A stretch of 64,000 nucleotides of DNA. Origin: Beijerinckiaceae bacterium. Lineage in GTDB: Bacteria; Pseudomonadota; Alphaproteobacteria; Rhizobiales; Beijerinckiaceae. Below are positions 1 through 14,941 of the stretch, piece by piece. Each line of letters opens with the position of its first letter. Position 1 is the first letter of the stretch. Made by a program: the position numbers and the translations under genes. The stretch is taken from contig CP024846.1 of NCBI GenBank assembly GCA_004564215.1, forward strand, positions 1,178,001 through 1,242,000, written 5' to 3'. The notes beneath the pieces were generated by a model, which was not told the DNA's origin, did no database searches, and saw only the letters and a list, made by a program, of their open reading frames with translations.

Positions 1-887
1 CTTTGCTGCGGACGAACGCTTGCAGCCCACTCGCGACCAATGCAATCCGTGGCAATATTTGGGATAATTTCTCATCATCGACCTATAAGGATCTGCCTTC
101 AGTCGGAGCCATTACGGTTCAAGATCCCTTTACGGGAGAGCGGCGGCAATACCGGATGCCGGGCGGCGGGCTTGGCTTCACCCGGGTACCCACGCTGATC
201 AGCACCTGGTCAACGGCACCTTATCTGATCAACAAGCGGATTGGCCCATTTGACGATGATCCTTCCGTCGAGAGCAGAATGAAATTGTTCCAGGCCTCGA
301 TCGAACAATTGCTTTGGCCTGAAAAACGTCCCCGTGAGGAAAAGCTGGATGGCTTTATCATGCGGACCACGGAGCGAAGCTGGGTCAAAATTCCAAAGCG
401 GGATATTCCAGTGGAGTTATCGAGTACGTTCGGCTCCCTGCAGGAACCGTTTTCGGGATTGCTGAAGGATTCAATCTCGCGCTTGTTCGATAAAGACGGC
501 AACTTTGTCCTTGGCCCAATTCCGAAAGGGCTGCCGATTAATCTGTTGGCCAATTACCGGCCGCTAGCTGATATCGAGGGCATTGCGGGGAAGGCAGAGC
601 ATGCAAAGAACTTCGTGGGCTTGCTGGCAATATTGGCCATGAATGTGCCAGCGCCAGGCCCAAGCGCAACCGATGAAGAAATGCTTGCTTGGGTGCAGAA
701 ACTGCGTGAGCCCTTGTTAAAGCTCAGTAAATGTCCAGATTTCGTGGTCAACCGCGGTCATTATTTCGGCACCGCGAAATTCAACGACTTCGAGGGCCTC
801 ACCGACGACGAAAAAGCCTATGGGGCCGAGCCGGTTCTGAGCGATGACGACAAGCGCGCCTTGATCGAATTTATTAAGACATTCTGA
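1..887 (+). CDS. C-terminal part of a large RoxA-like / di-haem cytochrome-type protein (5' truncated)
   Basis: The reading frame is open to the left window edge, so the true start lies outside; a TTG at 3 is probably not the start. The visible 294 residues carry a motif series that recalls large c-type cytochromes related to rubber oxygenase RoxA and cytochrome c peroxidases: an N-terminal TNACSPLATNAIRGNIWDNF stretch, GLGFTRVPTLISTWSTAPYL near residues 57-76, a SVESRMKLFQASIEQLLWPE block, and the end VLSDDDKRALIEFIKTF, which resembles the last helix of cytochrome c peroxidase-type domains. No CXXCH is present in this fragment, so any haem site would be upstream. Family assignment is from recollection of these motifs and is moderate only. 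A perfect 36-bp palindrome follows 25 bp after the stop. Confidence 0.5.
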   Translation, partial: LLRTNACSPLATNAIRGNIWDNFSSSTYKDLPSVGAITVQDPFTGERRQYRMPGGGLGFTRVPTLISTWSTAPYLINKRIGPFDDDPSVESRMKLFQASIEQLLWPEKRPREEKLDGFIMRTTERSWVKIPKRDIPVELSSTFGSLQEPFSGLLKDSISRLFDKDGNFVLGPIPKGLPINLLANYRPLADIEGIAGKAEHAKNFVGLLAILAMNVPAPGPSATDEEMLAWVQKLREPLLKLSKCPDFVVNRGHYFGTAKFNDFEGLTDDEKAYGAEPVLSDDDKRALIEFIKTF

Positions 888-1267: not shown

Positions 1268-3121
1268 ATGAGGATTTTACTTATTTCGAGTTCATTCAAT
1301 AGCTTTACGCAGCGCGTTTTTGTTGACCTTGACGACGCTGGACATGATGTCACTTTCGAACTTTCCAAGGACCTCGGGGCTGTGCGCGAGGCCGTCGCCC
1401 TCTTCAATCCAGATGTCATCATCTGCCCCTTCTTGAAGGAGTTCTTGCCTCGAGACATTTGGACCAAGCACCTCGCCATCATTATGCACCCGGGCATAGA
1501 AGGCGATCGTGGCCCGTCCTCCATCGACTGGGCGATCCTCGAAAATCGGAGCACATGGGGAGTGACCGCGCTCGAGGCTGCCGCTGAAATGGACGCAGGT
1601 TCGATCTGGTCGAGCCATAATTTCAACCTTCCCTTCGCAACCAAATCCTATGTCTACCGGACATACATTGTCGAGGTAGGCATGAATGGCATTTTTGCGA
1701 TCATCGACAAACTCTCTGCCCACCGCTCCCACGCGGCAGATCTTGAGCGGGTGGAAAAACGCAGCACGGTCGGTTCTCACGGCAGGGTGAGCCGCAGTAG
1801 GCCGATCGACAAGCGCTGCGTACCTGCCGAGGCCGTTCCTCTATTTCCCGCATCTACAAATGCCGGCAATCCCAAGATCGAGGGCCAGCTGCGCCCGCTC
1901 ATGCGGCAGGCCGATCGCAAAATCGACTGGCTCACGAATACGTCCGAGTTGATCGTTCGCAAAATCCATGCTGCAGACGGGTTTCCCGGCGTTCGGGATC
2001 AAATTGCCAATCGTGACTATTTGCTATTCGGCGCGCATTTCGAGGACGTTCTCGGAATCGACAGCCCGACCCGACCAGGCGAGATCATCGCGACTCGAAA
2101 TGGCGCGATCTGCCGCAAGACGATTGATGGCGCCGTCTGGGTCAGCCACATGAAGCAAAGGGCTGACGGCGCCCGATTCTTTAAACTGCCAGCGACCAGC
2201 GTTTTGCCAGACGAGGTCCTCGTCGGCGTACCCGAGTCGCCCATTCCGGCTTTGTTTACCGGTACCTGTCGGACCTTCAAGGAGCTCTGGTACCGGGAGG
2301 AAAATGACGTCGGGTATCTCCACTTCGAATTCTATAATGGCGCCATGTCGACGGAGCAGTGCCAGCGGCTCGAAGCGGCCATCCTCGCGGCTCGGCAGCG
2401 CCCAACAAAGGTGCTGGTCTTTATGGGCGGCATGAATTTTTGGTCGAACGGCATTCATCTCAACGTCATCGAGGCGGCGCGCGACCCTGCCTTGGAATCC
2501 TGGAAAAACATCAACGCCATCGATGACGTCGCGCTGGCTATGTTGACCCTGCAGGATCGACTTACAATTTCCGCGATGGGCGCCAACGCCGGTGCCGGCG
2601 GCGTCATGCTGGCCCTCGCCTCCGACCGCGTCATTTTGCGAAATGGGGTTGTGCTCAACCCGCACTACAAGTCGATGGGCCTCCACGGTTCCGAATACTG
2701 GACCTACAGCCTGCCGAAACGCGTCGGCAGGGAAAAGGCCACCGAGCTGACCAATAACTGCCTTCCGATCAATGCAAAAATCGCGGCCGAGATTGGCATG
2801 GTCGACGCAATCGTGAGCTGCGACGTCAGTGAGTTTGAAGCGATCGTCGCAGCCTCCGCGGAAGCGCTTGCAAGAAGCGAAGATTATGCCGAGCTTCTCG
2901 CCAAGAAACAGGCTCAACGGGCGCGAGACGAAGCGAGGAAGCCGCTTTCGCTCTATCGCCATGACGAATTGTCAGAGATGAGCAAGGCCTTCTGGGGCAA
3001 GGACGATAGCTATCACCTTGCCCGCCGCAATTTCGTTCACAAGAATTCCTGCGGCAAGACTCCGCATCGCTTGGCGAAGCACCGGCAGGAGGAAGACTGC
3101 TCGCGGACCATTTGCGGATAG
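1268..3121 (+). CDS. hypX: HypX/HoxX, hydrogenase maturation factor (formyl-THF to CO)
   Basis: 617 aa. The N-terminal third is a formyltransferase/hydrolase-like domain (start MRILLISSSFNSFTQRVFVD; signature HPGIEGDRGPSSIDWAIL near residues 76-93). The C-terminal part (about 345-560) is an enoyl-CoA hydratase/isomerase-type domain with FMGGMNFWSNGIHLN and GANAGAGGVMLALASD. The tail SYHLARRNFVHK is typical of HypX. In the family, HypX converts formyl-tetrahydrofolate to CO for the Fe(CN)2CO centre of [NiFe] hydrogenases made under air. The ATG has a good ribosome binding site (GGAG). No hydrogenase structural or hyp gene is seen elsewhere in the window, so here it is an orphan; what lies left of base 1 is unknown. 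Confidence 0.9.
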   Translation: MRILLISSSFNSFTQRVFVDLDDAGHDVTFELSKDLGAVREAVALFNPDVIICPFLKEFLPRDIWTKHLAIIMHPGIEGDRGPSSIDWAILENRSTWGVTALEAAAEMDAGSIWSSHNFNLPFATKSYVYRTYIVEVGMNGIFAIIDKLSAHRSHAADLERVEKRSTVGSHGRVSRSRPIDKRCVPAEAVPLFPASTNAGNPKIEGQLRPLMRQADRKIDWLTNTSELIVRKIHAADGFPGVRDQIANRDYLLFGAHFEDVLGIDSPTRPGEIIATRNGAICRKTIDGAVWVSHMKQRADGARFFKLPATSVLPDEVLVGVPESPIPALFTGTCRTFKELWYREENDVGYLHFEFYNGAMSTEQCQRLEAAILAARQRPTKVLVFMGGMNFWSNGIHLNVIEAARDPALESWKNINAIDDVALAMLTLQDRLTISAMGANAGAGGVMLALASDRVILRNGVVLNPHYKSMGLHGSEYWTYSLPKRVGREKATELTNNCLPINAKIAAEIGMVDAIVSCDVSEFEAIVAASAEALARSEDYAELLAKKQAQRARDEARKPLSLYRHDELSEMSKAFWGKDDSYHLARRNFVHKNSCGKTPHRLAKHRQEEDCSRTICG

Positions 3122-3137
3122 CGCCACATGTGCGTTC

Positions 3138-3255
3138 CTAGATCACGATGATTTTGGATTGACTCAATCCAAAATCATGAACGTGATCGATTCCAAAAAT
3201 TTAGAGCGGGATGCGGGCGGAAAACCGGTTTCCACTTTTCCTCATCCCGCTCTAA
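3138..3255. repeat. REP-like palindromic repeat, copy A
   Basis: Two palindromes side by side: 3141-3188 (arms GATCACGATGATTTTGGAT... and its complement) and 3202-3254 (arms TAGAGCGGGATG / CATCCCGCTCTA). The whole unit is nearly identical, in inverse orientation, to 33266-33380. Such mosaic elements are common between genes in Rhizobiales. The IS481 element at 3258 begins only three bases beyond this copy. Confidence 0.85.
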
Positions 3256-4218
3256 AGTGTTTAGTCCCGGCATTTGATGGGTTGGATCGAGTTTGAATCG
3301 TTCTGGCTCTTTTGTCCATGTTTTGACGATGAATTCGTAAGGGGTAAGGCCTTTGAGCGTCTTGAGGCGTCGACCATAATTGTATGCGCCGATGAAATCG
3401 GCGAGATGAGTTTCGAGCTGCTCGTGCCGATCGTAATGGTAGCGTTTGACAGTGGCTTCCTTGATTGTTCGGTTCATGCGCTCGACCTGACCATTGGTCC
3501 ATGGATGCTTGATCTTGGTAAGCCGATGCTCGATGCCGTTTTCCCGGCAGCGCATGTCGAACATATGTGTCATGTATCTCGCCGTCGGGCCGTCCGCGTA
3601 GCGCGGTGGGAAGGTGAACTGGATGCCGTTGTCGGTGAGAACGGTGTGGATCTTGTAAGGGACAGCGGCGATCAGAGCTCCCAGAAAAGCCGATGCTGAG
3701 GTCCGGCCTGTCTTTTTGACCAGTTGGACGAAGGCAAATTTGCTGGTGCGATCAATGGCGACATAGAGATAGAGCTTGCCTTCGGCGGTCTGCACCTCGG
3801 CGATGTCGATGTGAAAGAAGCCGATGGGATAGGCCTTGAACTTGCGCTTCTCGGGCTTGTCCCCCTCCACATCCGACAGGCGGCTGAGTCCGTGTCGTTG
3901 CAGGCAGCGATGCAGGGACGAGCGGGTCAGATGCGGGATGGTGGGCTGAAGCGCATAGAGGCAATCGTCGAGCGGCAGCAGCGTGTGCCGGCGGAAAGCG
4001 ACGACGATCGCTTCCTCCTCTGTCGCAAGCACGGTGGATTTCGGGGTTTTGGGGCCGGTCGGGTGATCGGCGACCGAGGCTCGGCTCTTCCATTTGGCGA
4101 CGGTCTTCTGATTGATCCCGTAGCGCTTGGCCAGAGCCCTCAGGCTCTCTTGACTATGTTGTATCGCTCGACGGACCGCCTCTGTCGTTGTGGCGCTCCC
4201 GTGTAGAACCTGACCCAT
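3175..4218 (-). CDS. IS481-family transposase, reading through into the flanking repeat
   Basis: 347 aa from an ATG with GGAGGG seven bases upstream (MGQVLHGSATTTEAVRRAIQ). It has an N-terminal helix-turn-helix (SLRALAKRYGINQKTVAKWK) and an integrase-core DDE domain: FHIDIAEVQ with the first Asp, VLTDNGIQF with the second, and NGQVERMNRTIKE with the Glu. The usual family C-terminus, HQMPGLNT, is reached right at the element's end. An insertion into NCTAGN would supply the stop codon TAG directly after that Thr. Here the flank reads CTTTAG, so the frame continues about 25 residues through REP-like copy A to a stop at 3175. The catalytic core is complete; whether the extended protein is active is unknown. 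Confidence 0.85.
   Translation of the reverse strand: MGQVLHGSATTTEAVRRAIQHSQESLRALAKRYGINQKTVAKWKSRASVADHPTGPKTPKSTVLATEEEAIVVAFRRHTLLPLDDCLYALQPTIPHLTRSSLHRCLQRHGLSRLSDVEGDKPEKRKFKAYPIGFFHIDIAEVQTAEGKLYLYVAIDRTSKFAFVQLVKKTGRTSASAFLGALIAAVPYKIHTVLTDNGIQFTFPPRYADGPTARYMTHMFDMRCRENGIEHRLTKIKHPWTNGQVERMNRTIKEATVKRYHYDRHEQLETHLADFIGAYNYGRRLKTLKGLTPYEFIVKTWTKEPERFKLDPTHQMPGLNTLERDEEKWKPVFRPHPALNFWNRSRS
3258..3280 (+). repeat. IS481 terminal inverted repeat (transposase 3' side)
   Basis: It pairs with 4252-4274; mismatches lie at positions 6, 7, 13, 14 and 15 of the 23-bp end. It abuts REP-like copy A. Confidence 0.75.
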
Positions 4219-4251
4219 AGCGCATCCCTCCATTCAGGAGAAAATAATGCA

Positions 4252-4434: not shown

Positions 4435-5211
4435 CTAACCAAACGATGGGGGCTGTACGCTGGACGCCTGACCCCCTCGCCGGATCGCTATGGCGCATCC
4501 CACCGGCACACGGAGCTTGTCCTGATCCGATGCATATCCGTCGCAAGGGATCGTCGTCTCGAAAAAAAGTCGGACAAGTTCCGCCTGCCGATGGGTCCCG
4601 GTTTTTTCCAGGATGCGCGCAAGATGGGTCCGCGCTGTAGAACGCGCAATGCTTATGCGCCGGGCTGCGACTGTCAGACCCTCTCCGGAAACCAGTTGGG
4701 CAAGGACACGGGCTTCCGCCGAAGTCAGGGCGAAGAGATCCGCAAACACATTGACCCTATCCATGGCATTCCTTTGGCAATCGACGATGAAAAGCCCGGC
4801 GACGGGTCTCTCGTTGTCGGAAAGCACGTCCTCGGAAGGGGGTGATAGAGGCATCACGTGGATTACCAACGAGGCACGTCCATCTTTGTCGCGCAGAAGG
4901 ACCGAACGCCCCAGCGCCTTCACGTCTAACGATCGAGAAACGGCCAACACCAGCGCGTGCAATTTCCGAGCTGCCCGGAGTTCGACCGTATTGAAGCAGC
5001 CGTGATCGCAGCAAAGTCCGCGACTCGCTCGCATTAGTTTTTCAGCGGCGTGATTTGCAAAAACAATTTGACGATTTGCAGCCACCAGGACCAAACCGAA
5101 ACCTGCGCTTGTGACGAGTTCGCCCAACAATTCCCCTGCTTGCGGCAGGGTGTCACCAAGCAGCTCATTGCCAAGAAAAGCACGTTTGAAGAGTGATGGC
5201 ATCATTTGCAT
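4435..5211 (-). CDS. LuxR-family transcriptional regulator with PAS-like sensor region
   Basis: 258 aa. The N-terminal half (about 30-150) looks like a PAS-type sensor domain (GFGLVLVAANRQIVFANHAA; later VAGLFIVDCQ). The C-terminal LuxR/GerE helix-turn-helix spans about 160-220 (FALTSAEARVLAQLVSGEGL, then ISIARSTARTHLARILEKTG). It is transcribed away from the catalase-related gene, with 646 bp between them. A perfect 22-bp palindrome lies 23 bp upstream of the start, a candidate self-regulatory operator. The ligand is unknown; a role controlling the neighbouring haem-enzyme genes is inferred from position only. Confidence 0.85.
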   Translation of the reverse strand: MQMMPSLFKRAFLGNELLGDTLPQAGELLGELVTSAGFGLVLVAANRQIVFANHAAEKLMRASRGLCCDHGCFNTVELRAARKLHALVLAVSRSLDVKALGRSVLLRDKDGRASLVIHVMPLSPPSEDVLSDNERPVAGLFIVDCQRNAMDRVNVFADLFALTSAEARVLAQLVSGEGLTVAARRISIARSTARTHLARILEKTGTHRQAELVRLFFETTIPCDGYASDQDKLRVPVGCAIAIRRGGQASSVQPPSFG

Positions 5212-5233
5212 TGTTCAACACCTCGAAACGAGG

Positions 5234-5255
5234 AAAGCGGCGTCGACGCCGCTTT
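5234..5255. promoter_or_regulatory. 22-bp perfect palindrome upstream of the LuxR-type gene
   Basis: AAAGCGGCGTC followed directly by its reverse complement, centred about 33 bp before the regulator's ATG. LuxR-type proteins bind dyad sites of about this size (known for the family). That this one is bound by the neighbouring regulator is inference. Confidence 0.55.
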
Positions 5256-5857
5256 GGCGTGAGCACTTCCCTGCACGGGTCGATTTCATATCGGCGCGAG
5301 AGGCCCCAGGTCTTTAAGAAGCGCTTAAGCTTGGTATCAATTTCGAATATGATTTTCTTAGACCGGCGGCCAAACGGCCGTCGTCGGTCTGCATACCGGC
5401 AATTTTTCTTAGGTCTTGCGATCCCGTCTTGAATTGACTTCCAACTTAATGCCTTGAACGACGGATGTCTTTAAAACGCGCTTACCCCGCATGTTATTTT
5501 TTGTTAAATTTCAATTAGCTCTGGAAACAAACCGAGCCGAAGTGCGCGGAGACCTTGGCCGGTCTGCCGGGAGCTTCTGTCGGCCTTCTTGACGAATAGA
5601 TTGCGCAGCGCACGGGCGCACCGCAACCCTTCCATGTTTGCCTTCGGACTCCGTTGCATTAGTCGAAATGGGATTGCCTATGTGTTGGTGATCTCTCCGC
5701 GCGAGACTGCTTGACCTTGCGGCTTTTTGCGGTTCTAACTTTGTTGAGGTTGCTAAAAATCTTGTGCCTCGGCACATGTCCGATCGCGATCAGAAATTAC
5801 ATTTCAGACAGAGCGTAGAAAGCTACATGCTTGTGCCGGCCGCCAGGGGGGTCGATC
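5256..5857. other. Intergenic region between LuxR gene and catalase-related gene
   Basis: About 600 bp, AT-richer than its neighbours. It contains an imperfect hairpin at 5360-5390 (AGACCG...GGCC paired with GGCC...CGGTCT). I see no convincing gene; it probably holds divergent promoters for the two flanking genes. Confidence 0.5.
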
Positions 5858-6949
5858 ATGCCGCGCGGTATTTATTTACAGTTTGACAAATCTGTAGAGG
5901 AAATCCAGCCCGACGAAGACAAGATCATCGACAAAATTATTGCATCTGGTGATCGTCTCGGCAAAGCCGCCTTGGAAAGAAATGGCCGCGCCCTGCGCGC
6001 GGCGCATGCCAAGAATCATGGTATTTTGAAAGGGACACTGACGGTCTGCGAGAATCTGCCGGACCATTTGCGTCAAGGTCTATTCGCAACCCCCCGCAGC
6101 TATCCAATCATCGTCCGATTTTCCACCGGCTTTGGCGATTTGCGCAGCGACAGGATCCCCAATCCGCGTGGGATGGCGATCAAGGTTTTGGGGGTGGATG
6201 GCGATAGACTATGCCCGGACGACACATCGGCCAATCAGGATATTCTCCTGGTCAATCACAGCACATATTTCTCCGATATTGCGACCTATGAAAGATTCGC
6301 AGGCATGGTTGCGGATGTGCCGAAAAAGTCAAATTTCAACCTCAGCCTCACGGCCGCTGTAGCGTCCTTTTTTAATAAGCTTCTTAATGGCTTCAGGCCT
6401 AAGATATTTCTGCGAATGCTTTTTTCGACGGTCGCGGACACTGGTCGTCATATTCTCGGGGAAACCTATCATTCCCAGGCCGCGCTTCGTTTCGGGGATT
6501 ATATTGCAAAACTGAGCGCCGCTCCCACAGGCGAGACCAAGAAGCTCGCAGGCGCTCCCGTCGGTTCCGGGGACGATAGCTTGGGGCAACTTGTCTCGAA
6601 TTTCCTCAAAACAAATGCCGCCGAATATGAGCTTCGCGCCCAGCTTTGCACCGATTTGAAACATATGCCGGTGGAAGACGCTTGGGCTGAATGGCCAGAA
6701 AAGCTATCCCTGCCACAAGTTGTGGCCCGTATCACCTTGCCTGCCGGGCAGGATCCTTTGAGCCCGGCGAGATGCGAGCACGGCGATCGTCTTTCGTTCA
6801 CGCCTTGGCGCGGTCTCTCGGCGCATCAACCGCTCGGATCGATTATGAGGCTGCGTAAGAAGGCTTACGAAGCCTCAAGCGCTTTCCGCCACAGGGAAAA
6901 TAAACAGCCCTTTGAAGAGCCCCGTGCAATTTCCGATTTTCCGGACTGA
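5858..6949 (+). CDS. Catalase-related haem protein (catalase family, about 40 kDa)
   Basis: 363 aa. The ATG at 5858 is chosen because AGGGGGG sits six bases upstream; a TTG at 5831 is also in frame. Catalase-superfamily features are RAAHAKNHGILKGTLTV (distal-His region, residues 47-63), VRFSTGFGDLRSDRIPNPRG (86-105) and the C-terminal AHQPLGSIMRLRKKAYEASS. It is much shorter than true catalases (about 480-750 aa) and belongs to the small catalase-like group, which includes hydroperoxide-processing enzymes related to allene oxide synthase. With an alpha-dioxygenase 5 kb downstream, a fatty-acid hydroperoxide is a plausible substrate (inference). Peroxide detoxification is the alternative. Confidence 0.8.
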   Translation: MPRGIYLQFDKSVEEIQPDEDKIIDKIIASGDRLGKAALERNGRALRAAHAKNHGILKGTLTVCENLPDHLRQGLFATPRSYPIIVRFSTGFGDLRSDRIPNPRGMAIKVLGVDGDRLCPDDTSANQDILLVNHSTYFSDIATYERFAGMVADVPKKSNFNLSLTAAVASFFNKLLNGFRPKIFLRMLFSTVADTGRHILGETYHSQAALRFGDYIAKLSAAPTGETKKLAGAPVGSGDDSLGQLVSNFLKTNAAEYELRAQLCTDLKHMPVEDAWAEWPEKLSLPQVVARITLPAGQDPLSPARCEHGDRLSFTPWRGLSAHQPLGSIMRLRKKAYEASSAFRHRENKQPFEEPRAISDFPD

Positions 6950-7032
6950 GATAAAGAGCCTCGAGGCGTCGAACCGCCAAGGTCGATTATGATCTTTGCC
7001 TAATGTCGAGCCCGCAAAGGGGGGCAAACTTC

Positions 7033-10000
7033 CTAACGGAGTGCCTCCGTCGCATAGCCGGCCAATAGAGATTCCCGCAATGGATCGTCGTGATCGAGGG
7101 TTTCTGACAGTTCTTTTATGACCTGATAAGAAAGACGTCGCATCTCGTCCGCTTTCGCTTCATCTCCGGCACTCTCATGCAGATTTGCCGCCGTTGCAAA
7201 AACGCGCCAAGCGGCAAGTGGCAGCTTCGCTTGTTCGACGATCGAGATCGCCCGCGAGATATGAATTTCGGCATCCTCAAAATTCTGCTCGGCCATCGCG
7301 ATTCTTGCGAGTAGCCTATGCGACAGTGCGAGGTAAGTGCGTTCCGGGGGCGCCTGCGTAATTTCTTGGAGCCGCATCGCTTCTTCCCGCGCGGAGGTCA
7401 AATCGCCAACCTCAATCCAATATTGGCTAAAGTTGTAATGATAATGAGGATAGATCGTCGCATCCATTGCCGCGCGGTCGATGCCTATCTGACGCTTTAT
7501 TTCGTTGAATTGCGCAAGTGCCGCCGGATAATCCCGTAGGCCGAGGCATGCCTTCGCCAAGAGATTTCGGCCGATGAACAAGCTGAATGGATTTGCTTCG
7601 ACTTCCGGATCGAGAGCTTCGTCGCAGATCTGTCTCGCGCCCGCAAAGTCCAACGCCTCCGCATGCAACCATCCGAGCGTTAGGCGGCAGAGAGCGATGC
7701 CCTGGCGATTGGCATTTTTTTCCGTTATTTCCAGCGCTTCAGCCACGCATTGGCGCAGGGCGCCCCAGTCGCCGAGATGCAAAAGCGAAAATGCGACCAT
7801 TGAGTTGAATACGATATAATAATATTCATCCCCGATCGCTTGCGCCAACTGCCTGCCCTCCTTTGCAGCAAGGCAGCTCTCCGCGTAATTCGAGGCCGAA
7901 TAGTAAAGCACACAGGCGATCGAACAGCGCCGCAACAAGACGCGGGGGTCGCGAGCGTCGACTATCATCGTCAGCACCTGGCGACAAACTTCCGCGTCCT
8001 CGTCACTCCAGCCTTTCAACATAAGATTTAAGTTTGCACTATTCCCTCGCGCCACGGCCTTGAAGGCACCCTCGTCAATGTCTTGGCTCTTTGCCAGGGC
8101 CCGCTCTGCGAACTGCAGGCATTGCAGCCGGTCGACATAGAGATAGAAGCGACTAAGATCGATCAAGCCGTTGATTTCCGAGCAGACCTCTTTTGCCTCG
8201 GCCGCGCAGGAGATCAAGCTGTGAAGATCCTCGATGGAGCCACGAAAGTCTCCGGATGATCGCCTGATCCAGGCTCTGCGTTGCAGGAGCAGGATCCGCG
8301 CCGTCAATTGATTTTCCAACGGTAAGCGAGCGACCAGATTCAATGCGCGCGTGATGTAGGTCGCTGCTTCATTGTGGCTGAAGCGCTGCGACGAATTGTC
8401 GGCGGCCTGGGCAAAATAACGCACGGCTTTCGCAAAGTCGCGGCCATCCTCAAAATGTAGCGCAAGAACGGAGGCGATTTCGGCTGTTTGATCTCCGTAG
8501 CCTTCCTCCAACATTTCACCGATTTGCCGGTGAAGCTGGGCCCGTTGTCCCGGCGCAAGCCGCTGATAGAGAACCTCCTGGTAGAGGCTATGCAGAAAAG
8601 AATAATGCCCGGCGACAGTCCCGTTTGGCCACTCGGCGATCCCACTGGCGGTCAACATCTGACCTTTCCGTACCAACGCCTCGCAAATGACTTCCACCTC
8701 AGAAATGCTTTGGTTCATCGCGCCGACGAGCGTCGCTGCGGAGAATTCAATACCCGCCACGCTCGCGGCCTCAACAAGCCGTTGTTCGTCGGTGGTCAAG
8801 CGATCGATCTGGCCTCCTATCATTTCCCTGAGGTCGTACGAAAGGCAGCTTTGGGAGGTCGGCGAACGCAAGGCCAGCCGCCAGCGCCCTTCAACTTCAA
8901 TAATTTCCTCCTGTGCGATCAAGTCACCGACGAGGGAAACCACAAACAGCGGCTGACCTTCGCTGCGCGGAAATATCCGCGTCGCTAAAGTGTGCGCGAT
9001 CTCAGCGTCATCGAATCGCAGGAGCAGATATTGCTCGACCTCGGCTTGCGAAAGCCTGTCGAGCGCGATCTCCGTGGAGAGCCCGTGAACCTGTAAGTCC
9101 TGGTGCAGCTTCCATGTCGGATGATTGACGATCCTGACGTCGATCGGCCGGAAGGTCGCGACAAACAAGACGGAGGCTTTTTTATTTCGCCTCGCAAATC
9201 GCGACAAAACATCCAAAGTCGCATAGTCGGTCCAATGCAAATCGTCGACAATGATCACCAAAGGCGACTCTGCGCTCAGAACCTCCAGCAACTCGCAAAA
9301 CTCGCGGAGCATCCGCTCTCGGGTGGCGCCAAATACCTCCTTCCGCAGTTCCGCCTGCTCATTGCCGCTCAGGAAACCCGGGATCTGTGCGAGCCAAGTC
9401 GGTGCATGATCCCTCAAAGCCTTCAGGAGAACAGGCGCATCGTCTCCGGTGCAGCGATCCTGCAGTGCTTCGATCAAAGGTAGAAATGCTTCATCGGTTC
9501 CGAAATGTTCGACACAACTGCCCAACAAAACGCGGACTCCGCGGGCCAACATGCGCTCAATCAACATTTGGGTGAGCGTCGTCTTTCCGATCCCGACCTC
9601 ACCCGTGACGAAGACGAGTTGCCGCTCTCCTCTGACCGCGCGTTGAAACAAATCCTCCAACGCTTCGAGCGGACCCGAGCGGCCAACCCACCACCGCGGA
9701 CGGGGCGGAGACGGCAGACCGGAGGGTTGGGACGGTGGCGAAGACCATTCCCTGGCAGGCCGCTCGGGCGCCTGCGGAAGGTCCACGGAAACAGGCGCAA
9801 TGAAGCGGTAGCCTCGCCGTGTCACGGTTTCGATATAACGCGGCGCCTTGGGATCGTCGCCGAGCGCAAAGCGGAGCGCATTGATCGTGACGCTCAAAGA
9901 CGATTCGCCAACATTAATATTGGGCCAGACGACGTCGAGCAGTTCGTCCTTGGTCACCAGTTTGCCGGCTCGCCCGACTAGGTGGCACAACACGTCGAAG

Positions 10001-10104
10001 GGCTTTGGCGCCAGCGCGACACGATCCTGTCCCCGCCAAAGTAGAGCATTGTCCGGATCTAATCGGAACTCACTGAAAACAATGCTGCGGGGTTTCTCGT
10101 TCAC
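7033..10104 (-). CDS. Large winged-helix / AAA-ATPase / TPR transcriptional regulator
   Basis: 1023 aa from a GTG start with AGGGGGA upstream. Residues 10-105 form an OmpR/CadC-type winged helix (DVVWPNINVGESSLSVTINA, then YIETVTRRGYRF). A linker rich in Pro leads to an AAA/STAND ATPase with Walker A GEVGIGKTT (168-176) and Walker B LVIIVDDLHW (282-291). The C-terminal half is helical with TPR-like repeats. This architecture is known for signal-integrating regulators with a sensor ATPase. It lies opposite to and between the catalase-related gene and the beta-propeller gene, so it may control one or both; no signal molecule can be read from the sequence. Confidence 0.85.
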   Translation of the reverse strand: MNEKPRSIVFSEFRLDPDNALLWRGQDRVALAPKPFDVLCHLVGRAGKLVTKDELLDVVWPNINVGESSLSVTINALRFALGDDPKAPRYIETVTRRGYRFIAPVSVDLPQAPERPAREWSSPPSQPSGLPSPPRPRWWVGRSGPLEALEDLFQRAVRGERQLVFVTGEVGIGKTTLTQMLIERMLARGVRVLLGSCVEHFGTDEAFLPLIEALQDRCTGDDAPVLLKALRDHAPTWLAQIPGFLSGNEQAELRKEVFGATRERMLREFCELLEVLSAESPLVIIVDDLHWTDYATLDVLSRFARRNKKASVLFVATFRPIDVRIVNHPTWKLHQDLQVHGLSTEIALDRLSQAEVEQYLLLRFDDAEIAHTLATRIFPRSEGQPLFVVSLVGDLIAQEEIIEVEGRWRLALRSPTSQSCLSYDLREMIGGQIDRLTTDEQRLVEAASVAGIEFSAATLVGAMNQSISEVEVICEALVRKGQMLTASGIAEWPNGTVAGHYSFLHSLYQEVLYQRLAPGQRAQLHRQIGEMLEEGYGDQTAEIASVLALHFEDGRDFAKAVRYFAQAADNSSQRFSHNEAATYITRALNLVARLPLENQLTARILLLQRRAWIRRSSGDFRGSIEDLHSLISCAAEAKEVCSEINGLIDLSRFYLYVDRLQCLQFAERALAKSQDIDEGAFKAVARGNSANLNLMLKGWSDEDAEVCRQVLTMIVDARDPRVLLRRCSIACVLYYSASNYAESCLAAKEGRQLAQAIGDEYYYIVFNSMVAFSLLHLGDWGALRQCVAEALEITEKNANRQGIALCRLTLGWLHAEALDFAGARQICDEALDPEVEANPFSLFIGRNLLAKACLGLRDYPAALAQFNEIKRQIGIDRAAMDATIYPHYHYNFSQYWIEVGDLTSAREEAMRLQEITQAPPERTYLALSHRLLARIAMAEQNFEDAEIHISRAISIVEQAKLPLAAWRVFATAANLHESAGDEAKADEMRRLSYQVIKELSETLDHDDPLRESLLAGYATEALR

Positions 10105-10669
10105 GGCGTCCCCCTGAGCGCGTCATAAGTGAAATTTATAGAAAAACTCGGCAGAATGTAAGGGTGTTTCAAAATGCTCGGCTATCCCCCTCGCCGGACC
10201 GGACCGGTTCGCCTATCCCTTGTTTGATTTGCGCTTTTTGGCTGCGGCACCCTCTCTAATCCTGTCGGCGGTGTGGTCGCGCGACGGAACCGGGGCGGCG
10301 GCTCAATCTCGAACGTGTGTCCGATGCGGGGGCACGGGAGCTATGATAGGCTTTCGTCATATGATCGGGCTCACCGGCAATGTCATTTGTGCTCGGGACC
10401 AGGCAGGCAATTGCTTTTGAACGCAATCCTTGGCAACGGCCGCTGCGAACACTGGCGGATTTGCGGTGAAGCACAGCGCCTCGCGTGTCTCACCGTGACG
10501 AAACCCAGCTTGTTGGCGATGTCTCTTGAGGATGTGCTCGCAGTTTTCCCTCCCGGCGGCGTAAAACGCCGGACCCCACACGACGGCTGGAGGTGGTTGG
10601 GGAGCGATGACAATACGCGCCGTCAGGATCGATTCGCGCGGAGCCGCGCTTTGGCGAAGGATCGCGCGG
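10105..10669. other. Intergenic region, 565 bp
   Basis: Lies between the divergent regulator and beta-propeller genes. I see no convincing gene; it likely holds both promoters. No clear operator dyad was found. Confidence 0.5.
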
Positions 10670-11800
10670 ATGGATCGACCCGAGCGTCGGACCAAAAATG
10701 GGGGGAGCATGACAAAGTGGTACATCGTTGCAGGCCTTTGTGTTGTCGGCGTTTTCTTGGCCTATCTGCTGTTCATGCCGACCAAGGGAGAACCCTCTCC
10801 TTGGAAGGCCCCAGAGGCGCCATCGTTGGAGAGCGGGCCTTATGCCGGTAATGATCGGCTGAAGAGGGTTCGACCCATCGCGATCGGTATTGGAACCGGG
10901 CCTGAGGCGCTTGTGATCGATCCTTCCAGGGGCGATTTCTTGACCGGGTTTAGTGACGGCGCCGTGGTCCGTATCGGCCGCGATGGCCAAATGTTGGAAG
11001 TTTTCGGAAATACGGGTGGACGCCCTTTAGGTTTGGCGATTTGCCCCGACGGCAGTGTGTTGGTTGCCGATGCGCTCAAAGGGCTGCTTCGCATTCGCTC
11101 GAACGGCGCGGCTCCCGAAGTGCTTGCCACTGAAGCCGATGGCGTGCCGTTTAAGTTTGTCGACAACGTTGCCGTAGACACAGCAGGCCGCAATGCCTAC
11201 TTCACCGATGCGTCGAGCAAATGGGGCTATGGTCACGATCGCGAAGACATCGTCGAACATGGTGGGCACGGACGACTGTTTCGATATGACCTCGCCAACG
11301 GCAAAATCGCGCTTGTCAAGGACGGGATCAATTTCGCAAATGGGGTCGTCCTCGGGCCGGACGACTCCTATCTGCTTTTAAATGAATCCGGTTCCTATCG
11401 CATATTGCGAATCTGGCTGAACCAGAGCCGCTTTGGCCAGACCGAAGTGTTTGTCGATAACCTGCCCGGGTTTCCCGACAATATCAGTTTCAACGGCACG
11501 GATCGTGTCTGGATCGCGTTACCTGTCCCCCGCGACAAGATGATCGATTCTCTTTCAGGCTCTCCTTTTTTGCGAAAAATAATTATGCGGGTGCAGGCAT
11601 TGATAGACGTTCCCATAAATCGTCGCGCCATGGCCATGGCTTACGACTTGAATGGCCAGCTTGTGGCGAACCTTCAGTATAAGGGTGACGGCGCTTATGA
11701 CTACATCACGCAAGTCACTGAAGTCGATGGCGATCTGTATTTCGGCTCACTCGTGCAAAAAAGTTTGGCAACACTGCCAAACTGGCAGCAGATCAAATAA
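10670..11800 (+). CDS. Membrane-anchored SMP-30/gluconolactonase (strictosidine-synthase-like) beta-propeller
   Basis: 376 aa from the ATG at 10670, which has GAAGGA eight bases upstream; the next in-frame ATG (10709) has its purine run only one base away. A basic N-terminus precedes one transmembrane helix (WYIVAGLCVVGVFLAYLLF). The rest resembles the strictosidine synthase-like / APMAP / SMP-30 six-bladed propeller: GPEALVIDPSRGDFLTGFSD, RPLGLAICPDGSVLVADALK, NVAVDTAGRNAYFTDASSKW, FANGVVLGPDDSYLLLNESG and FPDNISFNGTDRVWIALP. Family members hydrolyse lactones or esters or bind hydrophobic ligands. It lies 219 bp before the alpha-dioxygenase gene on the same strand, suggesting a joint job in oxidised-lipid metabolism (inference). 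Confidence 0.8.
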   Translation: MDRPERRTKNGGSMTKWYIVAGLCVVGVFLAYLLFMPTKGEPSPWKAPEAPSLESGPYAGNDRLKRVRPIAIGIGTGPEALVIDPSRGDFLTGFSDGAVVRIGRDGQMLEVFGNTGGRPLGLAICPDGSVLVADALKGLLRIRSNGAAPEVLATEADGVPFKFVDNVAVDTAGRNAYFTDASSKWGYGHDREDIVEHGGHGRLFRYDLANGKIALVKDGINFANGVVLGPDDSYLLLNESGSYRILRIWLNQSRFGQTEVFVDNLPGFPDNISFNGTDRVWIALPVPRDKMIDSLSGSPFLRKIIMRVQALIDVPINRRAMAMAYDLNGQLVANLQYKGDGAYDYITQVTEVDGDLYFGSLVQKSLATLPNWQQIK

Positions 11801-12019
11801 TCGCACGGTCCAACAATTTCCGTTGAACCTGTCGGACCGTCGACGACGCAATAAATCTGGCGGCCTCATCCGCTTGCATGATGCAGGCATCGCTATCGCC
11901 TATTACCATCTTCGTCGATCAAGTGAATTTTCAGCAGTCAGCTAATAGGCCCATCCAAAACCAAACGGCCGGTGGGTGGATGGGTCAATAGCGGCAACGG
12001 CCATGTAAAGGGGGATGAC

Positions 12020-13846
12020 ATGGCAGCCAAATCCTTAGAGCGAATTTTCGCAGCCGGTTTTCGTGCGATCAACCGGTATCGCGTGTGGTATCGGCTGCCC
12101 TTTGTACTTTCCGTCGCAAATCTCTTTGCGTTGCGTAGCGATCTGCGCTGGCAGAATCTTTTCAATACTGAGACCGCGCCGCCCGACCCGCCGCCCCCTG
12201 TCAATTTAGACGTTCGCCATTGCCGAACGGCCGATGGCAGCTTCAACGATCCAACAGACACATGGATGGGAATGGCGAAGACACGCTTCGGGCGTAACGC
12301 TCCGCTCGAACAAACTTACGCCGAGAAGCCGCCATGTCTCTACGAACCCAATCCACGACTCATCAGCCGCGTGCTTCTCGCACGCCGCCAATTTGTGCCG
12401 GCCGATACCGTCAATGTGCTCTTGGTGGCGTGGTTACAATTCATGGTCCATGACTGGATGAGTCATGGCGTCAATGACAAGGACAATCCTCCGCATTGCT
12501 TTCCCGTGCCGAAAGGTGACGATTGGCCAAAACCGGAAATGACGATCCTGCGTACCTGCCCGGATGACCGCGGAGGCCCGGCAGACAATGGACGGCCGGC
12601 AACATTTCGGAACATGGTCACCCACTGGTGGGACGGGTCACAGATTTATGGATCCGATCTCGAAATGCAGCACCAGGTACGCAGTGGAGAAACGGAACTG
12701 CTCCCGGAGGGCAAGCTGCATTTGGACAAGACTGGCCATCTCCCCCTCGATCCAAAGCCGGCGAACGGGGATAAAGAACAGGAGCTGGCGGCCATCAACG
12801 GCAATTGGTGGATAGGGTTGTCCGCCATGCATACTCTGTTTGCGCGCGAACACAATGCGATTGCTGCACGTTTACGGGAAGAATACCCAGGCCAGGATGG
12901 CGAATGGCTATTCCAGAAGGCTCGGCTGATTACCGCCGCGCTGATCGTCAAAATTCATGTGACCGAATGGACGCCCGCATTGCTCAATACACCAGTCCTG
13001 CGCTTTGCAATGCGTAGCGGTTGGTGGGGCCTGCTTGGCGAGACATTTTTCAAAGTCTTCGGCCGGCTGTTCCATTACGAGTTGCTCGATGGCATTCCCG
13101 GATCGCCGCAGGAGCAATATGATACGCCTTATGCCATCACCGAGGAATTTACCGCCGTCTATCGGATGCACTCATTGCTCCCCGACAAATTCTCGTTCCG
13201 GAAGCACATCGACGATAGCGAGCGGTTGTCCTGCACACTTAAAGATCTGTTCGCCGGAGGTACAACAAGAGCCCATCGCGACCTGCCATTCGAGGATGTG
13301 CTCTACAGCTTGGGCACAAGCTTTCCCGGCGCGCTCGAACTCCACAATTATCCAGCGGATCTTCGCAGGCTGCCAGAGAAGATCACCGAGGGTATCCTCA
13401 CGGACCTTGCGGCAACCGACATTCTTCGCGACAGGGAACGTGGTGTGCCCCGCTATTGTGCTTTTCGCCGTATGCTGCGGATGAGCGTGCCCAAAACCTT
13501 CGAGGAACTCACGAACAACGAGCAATGGCAGCGCGAACTGAAGGAAGTTTATGGGGACGTCGAACGCGTCGACCTGCTTACCGGTACACTTGCGGAGTCC
13601 AAGCCTCCCGGCTTTGCAATATCCGACACAGCGTTTCGAATCTTCATCATAATGGCGAACCGACGAATTAAAAGTGATCGATTTCTGACGGTCGATTATA
13701 CTCCCGAAGTCTACACGCCCGTTGGAATCGACTGGGTCGAAAAAAACGGTATGCGGGAAGTGCTGTTGCGGCACGCGCCGTCTCTTGCCCCGATTCTGTC
13801 TGCTGTTCCAAACAGCTTCTTCCCTTGGCCGAAATCGGGAAGCTGA
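12020..13846 (+). CDS. Alpha-dioxygenase-type haem peroxidase (fatty-acid alpha-oxygenase)
   Basis: 608 aa from the ATG at 12020 with AAGGGGGA just upstream. It belongs to the animal-type haem peroxidase / cyclooxygenase superfamily and looks like plant alpha-DOX in size and motifs: LQFMVHDWMSHG with distal His144, VKIHVTEWTPALL (310-322), and EFTAVYRMHSLLPDK with catalytic Tyr381 and proximal haem ligand His384. The Tyr-Arg-Met-His spacing is that of alpha-dioxygenases. These enzymes insert O2 at C2 of fatty acids to give 2-hydroperoxides, which lose CO2 to aldehydes. No signal peptide is clear; the N-terminus is basic and amphipathic. Substrate specificity is not visible. Confidence 0.85.
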   Translation: MAAKSLERIFAAGFRAINRYRVWYRLPFVLSVANLFALRSDLRWQNLFNTETAPPDPPPPVNLDVRHCRTADGSFNDPTDTWMGMAKTRFGRNAPLEQTYAEKPPCLYEPNPRLISRVLLARRQFVPADTVNVLLVAWLQFMVHDWMSHGVNDKDNPPHCFPVPKGDDWPKPEMTILRTCPDDRGGPADNGRPATFRNMVTHWWDGSQIYGSDLEMQHQVRSGETELLPEGKLHLDKTGHLPLDPKPANGDKEQELAAINGNWWIGLSAMHTLFAREHNAIAARLREEYPGQDGEWLFQKARLITAALIVKIHVTEWTPALLNTPVLRFAMRSGWWGLLGETFFKVFGRLFHYELLDGIPGSPQEQYDTPYAITEEFTAVYRMHSLLPDKFSFRKHIDDSERLSCTLKDLFAGGTTRAHRDLPFEDVLYSLGTSFPGALELHNYPADLRRLPEKITEGILTDLAATDILRDRERGVPRYCAFRRMLRMSVPKTFEELTNNEQWQRELKEVYGDVERVDLLTGTLAESKPPGFAISDTAFRIFIIMANRRIKSDRFLTVDYTPEVYTPVGIDWVEKNGMREVLLRHAPSLAPILSAVPNSFFPWPKSGS

Positions 13847-14401: not shown

Positions 14402-14941
14402 TTATTCCTCGAAAACGCCTTCCATCGCGTAGTGGCTGATTGTCTTACGATTGCTGATCAGATCGTCGACCGTTGGCTCCCCCTTTAAAGCGCGCGCAAT
14501 AGCGAGTTTCGTTGCCTCGTAGTTGGTGCGGTAGAGGTCGCGCTTGTCGAGGTTCGCATCCGTCGCGCAGCGCGGATCGAGCCAGACCATGATGATCATG
14601 CAAAGCTCTTCTGCGTGCTCTTTCGAGAGAATGCCTTCAACGAGGCAATCGACGATCGCGTCTCCCGTCGCCGCCTGCACAATTCCGCCCAGCAATTCGA
14701 CATAGTCACTGGAGCGCACCGTCATCTTGGTGGTCATCATGGTCGCCGGGCGCACCAATTGATTGAGGTCGCGGATGACGAACATGCGCGGATGACCCGC
14801 GGCCTGCCCCGCCATGCCGGCAAAAGCGTGCCCCACGGGACCCTTGACATGGCCGATCATCACCTCGGGCATGGCATCGGTGAATTGCCCCTCCGCAGCC
14901 AGAACCGTCGCCTCGCCGGTGCGCAGCCAAATCTCGCTCAT
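14402..14941 (-). CDS. Formaldehyde-activating enzyme (Fae) family paralog, catalytic His replaced
   Basis: 179 aa, close to the roughly 170 aa of Fae. It has the family pattern: VMIGHVKGPVGHAF (27-40), PATMMTTKMTV, a VDCLVEGILSKEHAEELCMI segment and the hallmark NYEATKLAIARAL. Fae condenses formaldehyde with tetrahydromethanopterin in methylotrophs. At the place of the active-site His (H17 of the known enzyme, in EVAHIDLIIG) this protein has Met24 (TDAMPEVMIG), so it is probably a Fae2/Fae3-like paralog with a different or regulatory role. It is the best single hint of a methylotrophic host. It lies downstream of the FUSC gene on the same strand with 108 bp between them. Confidence 0.8.
   Translation of the reverse strand: MSEIWLRTGEATVLAAEGQFTDAMPEVMIGHVKGPVGHAFAGMAGQAAGHPRMFVIRDLNQLVRPATMMTTKMTVRSSDYVELLGGIVQAATGDAIVDCLVEGILSKEHAEELCMIIMVWLDPRCATDANLDKRDLYRTNYEATKLAIARALKGEPTVDDLISNRKTISHYAMEGVFEE

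Follow-up and report, generated by a model that had tools for sequence, protein, structure and literature searches.

A fatty-acid alpha-dioxygenase gene and its neighbours in a Beijerinckiaceae genome: a partly supported oxylipin locus

The DNA considered here (the window) is a stretch of 64,000 nucleotides, G000:C1:1178001-1242000, in the 3.33 Mb single-contig genome G000 of a Beijerinckiaceae bacterium, and the genes in question encode a fatty-acid alpha-dioxygenase (alpha-DOX), a catalase-related haem protein, a propeller protein and two putative regulators. A sequence-only reading had seen in this set a candidate oxylipin locus without described bacterial precedent. A frame check of the window finds each of the five as an open frame at its position in Table 1, flanked by an IS481 transposase gene and by the gene of a formaldehyde-activating enzyme homologue. 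As far as sequence comparison goes, the genes are confirmed and the interpretation is partly supported.

The alpha-DOX matches PF03098 at 374 bits in a Pfam scan and its best solved relatives are plant alpha-DOX, the rice enzyme (4kvj) scoring 341 bits over residues 28-619 of the 624-amino-acid (aa) frame, while the top match beyond this family, a lactoperoxidase chain, reaches 98 bits. Started from the ATG at 12020, the protein has 608 aa, and the distal His144, the Tyr381 and the proximal His384 named by the sequence-only reading are borne out in this numbering. His313, Thr318 and Arg549 align with residues of the rice chain which we take to be the carboxylate site, and six active-site residues are kept relative to the rice enzyme; chain 4kvl has a Phe where the catalytic Tyr stands. 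Full-length homology to the plant enzymes (4kvj, 4hhr), the haem His pair, the Tyr and the presumed carboxylate-site residues are what the window enzyme shares with plant and cyanobacterial alpha-DOX (PMC8720084), from which it differs by its host group, by standing beside regulators, a propeller gene and a catalase-related gene, and by being known from sequence only. In that paper, alpha-DOX are described as known plant enzymes about which little is known elsewhere, the cyanobacterial alignment dropped N-terminal extensions (0-368) and the word 'catalase' does not occur in the main text. Among our compared genomes and loci (numbered G and L), the alpha-DOX of G688 (L143:1034-3508), which lies behind a LuxR gene, has a hydrophobic N-terminal extension of ~220 aa.

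Alpha-DOX genes of bacteria have recurrent neighbours, which were surveyed within 6 kb at 80 named loci chosen as the best among 199 confirmed hits (gene calls at compared loci came from a simple GC-frame script). These are an OYE-like flavoprotein (c1, 54 loci), a RoxA-like dihaem cytochrome (c2, 46), a ~300-aa protein (c3, 53) and a small hydrophobic protein (c4, 47), the names being taken from a few scanned members and cluster mates being assigned by BLAST or hidden Markov model (HMM). Any of c1-c3 is near 65 of the 80 loci, all three are near 41, and c3 is near 39 of the 47 loci having 6 kb on both sides; since the HMMs of c1-c5 derive from clusters found at these very loci, the counts describe the association rather than test it. 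At 24 control loci, which are catalase or propeller neighbourhoods and not random sites, c1 was found once, c2 twice and c3 never. Two Halomonas c2 proteins and that of L089 reach NF040606, the dihaem cytochrome c peroxidase family, and the latter also matches 4b2n, which is RoxA (PMC4496055); the same source classes the 10S-dioxygenase (10S-DOX) and diol synthase of Pseudomonas aeruginosa with RoxA. In a quick tree of 99 hand-picked rows (no bootstrap, with a long-branch warning), the window alpha-DOX is nested in a 42-row alphaproteobacterial clade, 28 rows of which stand for named loci that have one or more of c1-c3 nearby. The closest metagenomic relatives of the enzyme are mostly 70-76% identical to it.

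Scanned c3 members (e.g. L007:11766-12674 and relatives, alignment A3) have no Pfam or NCBIfam match. A c3 model (pLDDT 89.2) retrieved P450s as its best 50 PDB matches listed (best E 1.8e-5, TMq up to 0.66), of which GfsF, TylHI, MycCI and DoxA are presumed to be P450s and the others are so by title, and a Cys-Pro-Ala near the C-terminus is invariant in 15 of 15 aligned rows. From the model we infer that c3 is a compact P450-fold protein with a haem thiolate. This partner goes undetected in the window genome: an HMM search found no c3 there, while control genomes G266, G294 and G470 match, and tblastn found no significant c3 remnant in the window, including behind its alpha-DOX. Nor does the genome have a PF21419 match above cut-off.

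A different arrangement came to light in 397 genomes of the order, which contain 10 further strong alpha-DOX genes; seven of these have c3 directly downstream and three a catalase-related fusion. In the latter (G416, G424 and G475), one frame of ~960 aa consists of a catalase-related domain followed by alpha-DOX, the next gene being RoxA-like. A search with the N-terminal part of the fusion returned 593 proteins; of the 120 listed, three shorter than 850 aa were left out of the domain count, and each of the other 117 matches the HMMs of both domains. Among those with a source name are proteins of Roseibium, Labrenzia, Streptomyces, Nonomuraea and Actinomadura. No c3 match was found in G416, one of the fusion genomes, whereas three c3 genomes do match, and together with the order-level split this makes the P450-fold protein and the catalase-related domain look like alternatives. 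In the open-licence literature, neither a catalase-alpha-DOX fusion nor a pairing of alpha-DOX and P450-fold genes was found described; most source-named fusion proteins (L100, L101, L102, P0242-P0361) are annotated as peroxidase, peroxidase family protein, catalase or hypothetical protein.

The catalase-related protein of the window has itself no Pfam or NCBIfam match in family scans, PF00199 being present in many of its relatives. Its predicted structure (mean pLDDT 81.8, low at 154-186) matches in Foldseek both catalases and the catalase-related proteins 3e4y (TMt 0.64) and 1u5u (TMt 0.55), with a root-mean-square deviation near 7, and a catalase fold is predicted on this basis. All 49 rows compared, 48 from the clade of the window catalase and one a fusion with LodA (L107), keep Arg333 and Tyr337 in the R-x-x-x-Y motif of catalase-related haemoproteins (cAOS, cHPL and MAP-2744c). 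A small catalase-family haem protein, as the sequence-only reading had it, is thus supported by fold and motif, but the claim that it is of the kind that can process fatty hydroperoxides finds no support in its distal residues: a Thr-His pair at the distal haem (T66/H67 in cAOS) is the hallmark of catalase-related proteins acting on such substrates, and the window protein has Ala49-His50. The residue before the distal His is Gln in 20, Ala in 17, Val in nine and Ser in three of the 49 rows, and Phe in 12 and Gln in three of 15 fusion rows; as Thr is absent also from the fused catalase domains, the hallmark is undecisive for those. In a tree of 68 hand-picked rows, which carries a long-branch warning, the 15 sampled fusion rows form a group of their own (100/100), ruling out the window catalase as a member of the alpha-DOX-fused group. 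The catalase of G076 is identical to a protein named Methylocella silvestris BL2, a match on which the genus name used below partly rests. A second catalase-related gene of the window genome has Asn in the distal His column and, as its nearest tree relatives, the alpha-DOX-adjacent catalases of L051 and L054; it is divergent from a RoxA-like paralogue, and the stretch with these two genes (L126:1725-7820) also contains a GMC oxidoreductase gene.

The regulators are of two kinds. In the LuxR protein, announced as a PAS-LuxR regulator, family scans found the GerE helix-turn-helix (HTH) and no PAS domain, whereas the large protein is a winged-HTH (wHTH)-AAA-TPR regulator as claimed (Trans_reg_C, AAA_16 and TPR). 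In congener G588, homologues of both (53% and 55% identical, respectively) lie side by side next to the gene of a cyclooxygenase (COX)-CYP74 fusion, and G575 has three LuxR homologues, one of which (43%) is neighboured by two RoxA-like genes. In both G076 and G040, a RoxA-like gene is divergent from the catalase gene that lies next to the AAA gene. Because of the G588 arrangement and of these catalase and RoxA-like neighbours elsewhere, both proteins are, by analogy, likely regulators of the locus. In Bradyrhizobium and Methylobacterium, genes for large AAA-TPR proteins likewise lie upstream of alpha-DOX and divergent from it, in a layout similar to that of the window; one that was scanned (L063) carries an adenylate cyclase domain. 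The G588 fusion (L166:4418-7582) has 1054 aa, its N-terminal half matching COX-2 (230 bits) and its C-terminal half CYP74A2 (130 bits).

Within the set, the catalase-related and AAA genes are convergent and 83 bp apart, and the propeller and alpha-DOX genes are co-directional with a spacing of 219 bp. The propeller has the expected SMP-30/strictosidine-synthase-like character, with matches to the family-level HMMs Str_synth, SSL_N and SGL, and its hydrophobic N-terminus (judged by eye) agrees with the predicted membrane anchor; it probably serves as a hydrolase or binding protein anchored in the membrane. Its relatives occur in 65 of the 397 order genomes, its own included, and at L127 and L128 they have other neighbours, with a Trans_reg_C-STAND regulator near by at L128.

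Table 1. Features of the locus and its surroundings (window positions)
Feature	Position	Strand	Remarks
836-aa protein, 3' part, remotely RoxA-like, two CxxCH	1..887	+	start upstream of window, G000:C1:1176377
HoxX-like formyltransferase/enoyl-CoA hydratase gene	1268-3121		domains from family scan
IS481 family transposase, between hoxX and LuxR gene	3175..4233	-	NF033577, 282 bits
LuxR-type regulator, GerE HTH	4435..5211	-	family scan
Catalase-related haem protein, 363 aa	5858..6949	+	distal His50, proximal Tyr337 and Arg333 by alignment; Ala49 before His50
wHTH-AAA-TPR (STAND-like) regulator, 1023 aa	7033..10104	-	Trans_reg_C, AAA_16, TPR
Divergent intergenic region, 604 bp, regulator/propeller	10105..10708	.	
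Strictosidine-synthase-like/SMP-30-type propeller, 363 aa, hydrophobic N-terminus	10709..11800	+	
Fatty-acid alpha-dioxygenase, 608 aa	12020..13846	+	His144, His313, Thr318, Tyr381, His384, Arg549
Formaldehyde-activating enzyme homologue	14402-14941	-	

Is the set conserved? A profile search of 149 genomes of the family gave a catalase match in 35 and an alpha-DOX match in 10, four of them strong; in the three other strong carriers the catalase match is weak or lacking (G007, 66 bits; G048, 84 bits; G118, none), so that co-inheritance of the two is not seen in this sample. Among the 80 named alpha-DOX loci, a catalase-like gene is within 6 kb at three (L051, L054 and L080), L051 having c3 as well. 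The propeller was near none of these 80 and beside none of the 10 other order-level alpha-DOX genes, and was rejected as a regular neighbour; in the order sample, propeller and alpha-DOX are both present in the window genome and G416, and adjacent in the window genome only. The exact set, whose conservation had been proposed as a check, was found neither elsewhere in the 149 genomes nor at the 80 loci, and the idea of the five genes as one ancient unit fails on these comparisons.

What, then, might the locus do? In plant alpha-DOX, a tyrosyl radical initiates the reaction, and the 2-hydroperoxy acid that is formed loses CO2 to give a shorter aldehyde. By homology, the haem of the window enzyme would generate a Tyr381 radical, which would take a hydrogen from the alpha-carbon of a fatty acid held by His313, Thr318 and Arg549; addition of O2 would give a 2-hydroperoxy acid, and this would either lose CO2 to yield an aldehyde one carbon shorter or be processed further. 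The P450-fold neighbour in many bacteria and the fused catalase-related domain elsewhere make a second haem centre look like a common companion of alpha-DOX, one that would handle the hydroperoxide or the peroxide level. In the window, the best candidate for this role, acting in trans, may be the catalase-related protein encoded two genes away. Our tentative proposal, to which we give somewhat less than an even chance, is thus an alpha-DOX oxylipin locus in a Methylocella-type host that lacks the common P450-fold partner and in which the catalase-related protein is a possible stand-in.

Several findings weigh against this proposal. The window is not alone in lacking c3, since c3 is beside the gene in only two of the seven other alpha-DOX carriers of the family (G628 and G118) and absent from the searched neighbourhood of the gene in the remaining five (G007, G048, G725, G754 and G688), and 27 of the 80 named loci have no c3 either; in G725 and G754, c1 is near. 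In G628, where c3 and c4 follow an alpha-DOX fragment with 75% identity to the window enzyme over 239 aa, a DUF6629 gene occupies the place expected for the catalase. In the tree, the window catalase stands apart from the catalases adjacent to alpha-DOX at L051 and L054, whose group includes the second catalase of the genome, and this position, together with the Ala before the distal His, speaks against an inherited catalase/alpha-DOX partnership, as judged on sequence. LodA oxidases produce hydrogen peroxide, and the fusion of a catalase-related domain to a LodA-type lysine epsilon-oxidase in G035 (L107:6263-9268) fits plain removal of hydrogen peroxide by the family; this 1001-aa frame had been considered, and rejected, as a dioxygenase fusion. 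As for the regulators, seven of 10 LuxR-homologue loci in the genus have no panel neighbour, three of the seven being on short contigs.

These findings make room for a rival that comes quite close to an even chance, namely that two unrelated modules adjoin: an older catalase/AAA pair for stress and, from a different origin, propeller and alpha-DOX. Here alpha-DOX would need no partner to form odd-chain aldehydes or 2-hydroxy acids, while hydrogen peroxide or organic peroxides would be removed independently by the catalase. The convergent catalase/AAA pair indeed occurs in three genomes without alpha-DOX (G123, G076 and G040, with AAA proteins 50-59% identical), and alpha-DOX is sparse, being present in two of 15 genomes of the genus and, at E 1e-100, in eight of 397 of the family. 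The alpha-DOX genes of G007, G048 and G688 have none of c1-c3 and no catalase near, and the rival also draws on the Ala-His motif, on the position of the window catalase outside the alpha-DOX-linked groups and on the missing propeller at other alpha-DOX loci. In genus-mate G103, a catalase gene is present and the AAA gene is not beside it. Against the two-module reading stand the close homologues of both regulators beside the COX-CYP74 fusion of G588, and the catalase-alpha-DOX fusions, in which both activities are used together. In addition, a gene of catalase-related, RoxA-like or COX type is no more than two genes away from four of the five AAA homologues examined (G123, G076, G040 and G588, not G628), although those of G123, G076 and G040 had been fetched because of their catalase.

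Least probable of all is lipid-peroxide detoxification, with the AAA protein sensing oxidised fatty acids, catalase-related and RoxA-like dihaem proteins reducing hydroperoxides, alpha-DOX trimming damaged free fatty acids and no signal being made. It would suit this reading that catalase-related genes neighbour RoxA-like genes in G076 and G040, that the second such gene of the window genome neighbours the RoxA-like paralogue, and that c2 proteins match the dihaem cytochrome c peroxidase family. Against it, oxylipins are the products of the RoxA-like FadCcp enzymes (PA2077/PA2078) of P. aeruginosa (PMC4496055). Alpha-DOX, moreover, creates hydroperoxides rather than removing them.

The oxylipin proposal can be set beside several known systems. 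Nostoc punctiforme has a linoleate 10S-DOX with a catalase-related hydroperoxide lyase (Brash 2014, as cited in PMC13049297 and PMC9579011), and the likeness lies in a bacterial dioxygenase of the COX superfamily combined with a catalase-related protein; by description, however, the Nostoc enzyme has another Tyr motif, whereas that of the window is an alpha-DOX. With this pairing on record, the set is less unprecedented than had been claimed. The oleate 10S-DOX and 7,10-diol synthase (FadCcp) of P. aeruginosa (PMC4496055) offer a bacterial oxylipin route with RoxA-like dihaem enzymes, of which relatives are near 46 of the 80 alpha-DOX loci, but theirs is not an alpha-DOX route, and the RoxA-like protein of the window is just a remote relative. 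In fungal DOX-CYP fusions and the catalase-related AOS-LOX fusions of corals (PMC13049297, PMC5617202), a dioxygenase is coupled to a further haem protein, by which the hydroperoxide is converted; in the window the genes are neighbours and a 2-hydroperoxide is expected. The catalase/alpha-DOX fusions of Streptomyces, Nonomuraea, Roseibium and others unite the same two enzyme superfamilies in one chain, whereas the window genes are separate and its catalase is of another group. The locus would accordingly be of a kind already known, a bacterial fatty-acid dioxygenase with a second haem protein. The general idea of fatty-acid oxygenation, hydroperoxide conversion and signal control gains from the fusions, from the RoxA-like genes near alpha-DOX and from the regulators of G588, and loses from the lack of conservation of the exact set.

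A wider and unlikely extension of the oxylipin proposal would be a modular bacterial system in which the second haem centre of alpha-DOX is swappable (a P450-fold protein, a fused catalase or, here, a free-standing catalase-related protein) and the LuxR/AAA-TPR pair is a lipid-peroxide-responsive unit shared with the COX-CYP74 fusion of a sister species. Defined partners (c3, c1, c2 and the catalase-related fusion) make the fate of the 2-hydroperoxy acid in bacteria, and a signal role of its product, testable; to these, hinting at a little-known bacterial oxylipin network, the window adds an alpha-DOX locus with candidate regulators in a Methylocella-type lineage, the common P450-fold partner being missing.

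The 836-aa protein at the left edge, which the sequence-only reading thought might belong to the set, has CxxCH motifs at residues 242 and 472, both left of the window edge, which falls at residue 543. It scores 18 bits against NF040606 (cut-off 150) and lacks PF21419, and being below these cut-offs it is ruled out as a plain RoxA; its relatives score 17-38 bits against the RoxA-like HMM. Its homologues do keep such company, having both OYE-like and RoxA-like genes in their vicinity at L133 and RoxA-like ones at L134; a homologue in G245 lies directly behind c1-c2-c4/c5-c2 genes and one in G177 is near two c2 genes. The paralogue in the same genome (~65% identical) is the one divergent from the second catalase-related gene (L126). 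The gene is separated from the LuxR gene by hoxX (a name we presume for the gene at 1268-3121) and the IS481 copy, and is 5 kb from the catalase gene; that it belongs to the locus is a reasonable suspicion.

At the 3' end of the IS481 copy lies a dispersed repeat of ~117 bp (3137-3255), of which 19 more near-full copies with 95-99% identity were found in the genome (20 of 96 candidates scored) and many in congeners; a 22-nt inverted repeat lies in this region (3195-3261). Some 18 kb to the left of alpha-DOX is a second animal-haem-peroxidase gene, with a 452-bit match and an RTX repeat (L003:10001-11920, G000:C1:1170001-1171920), which is followed by genes that resemble, by eye, those for the ATP-binding cassette (ABC) and membrane-fusion parts of type I secretion.

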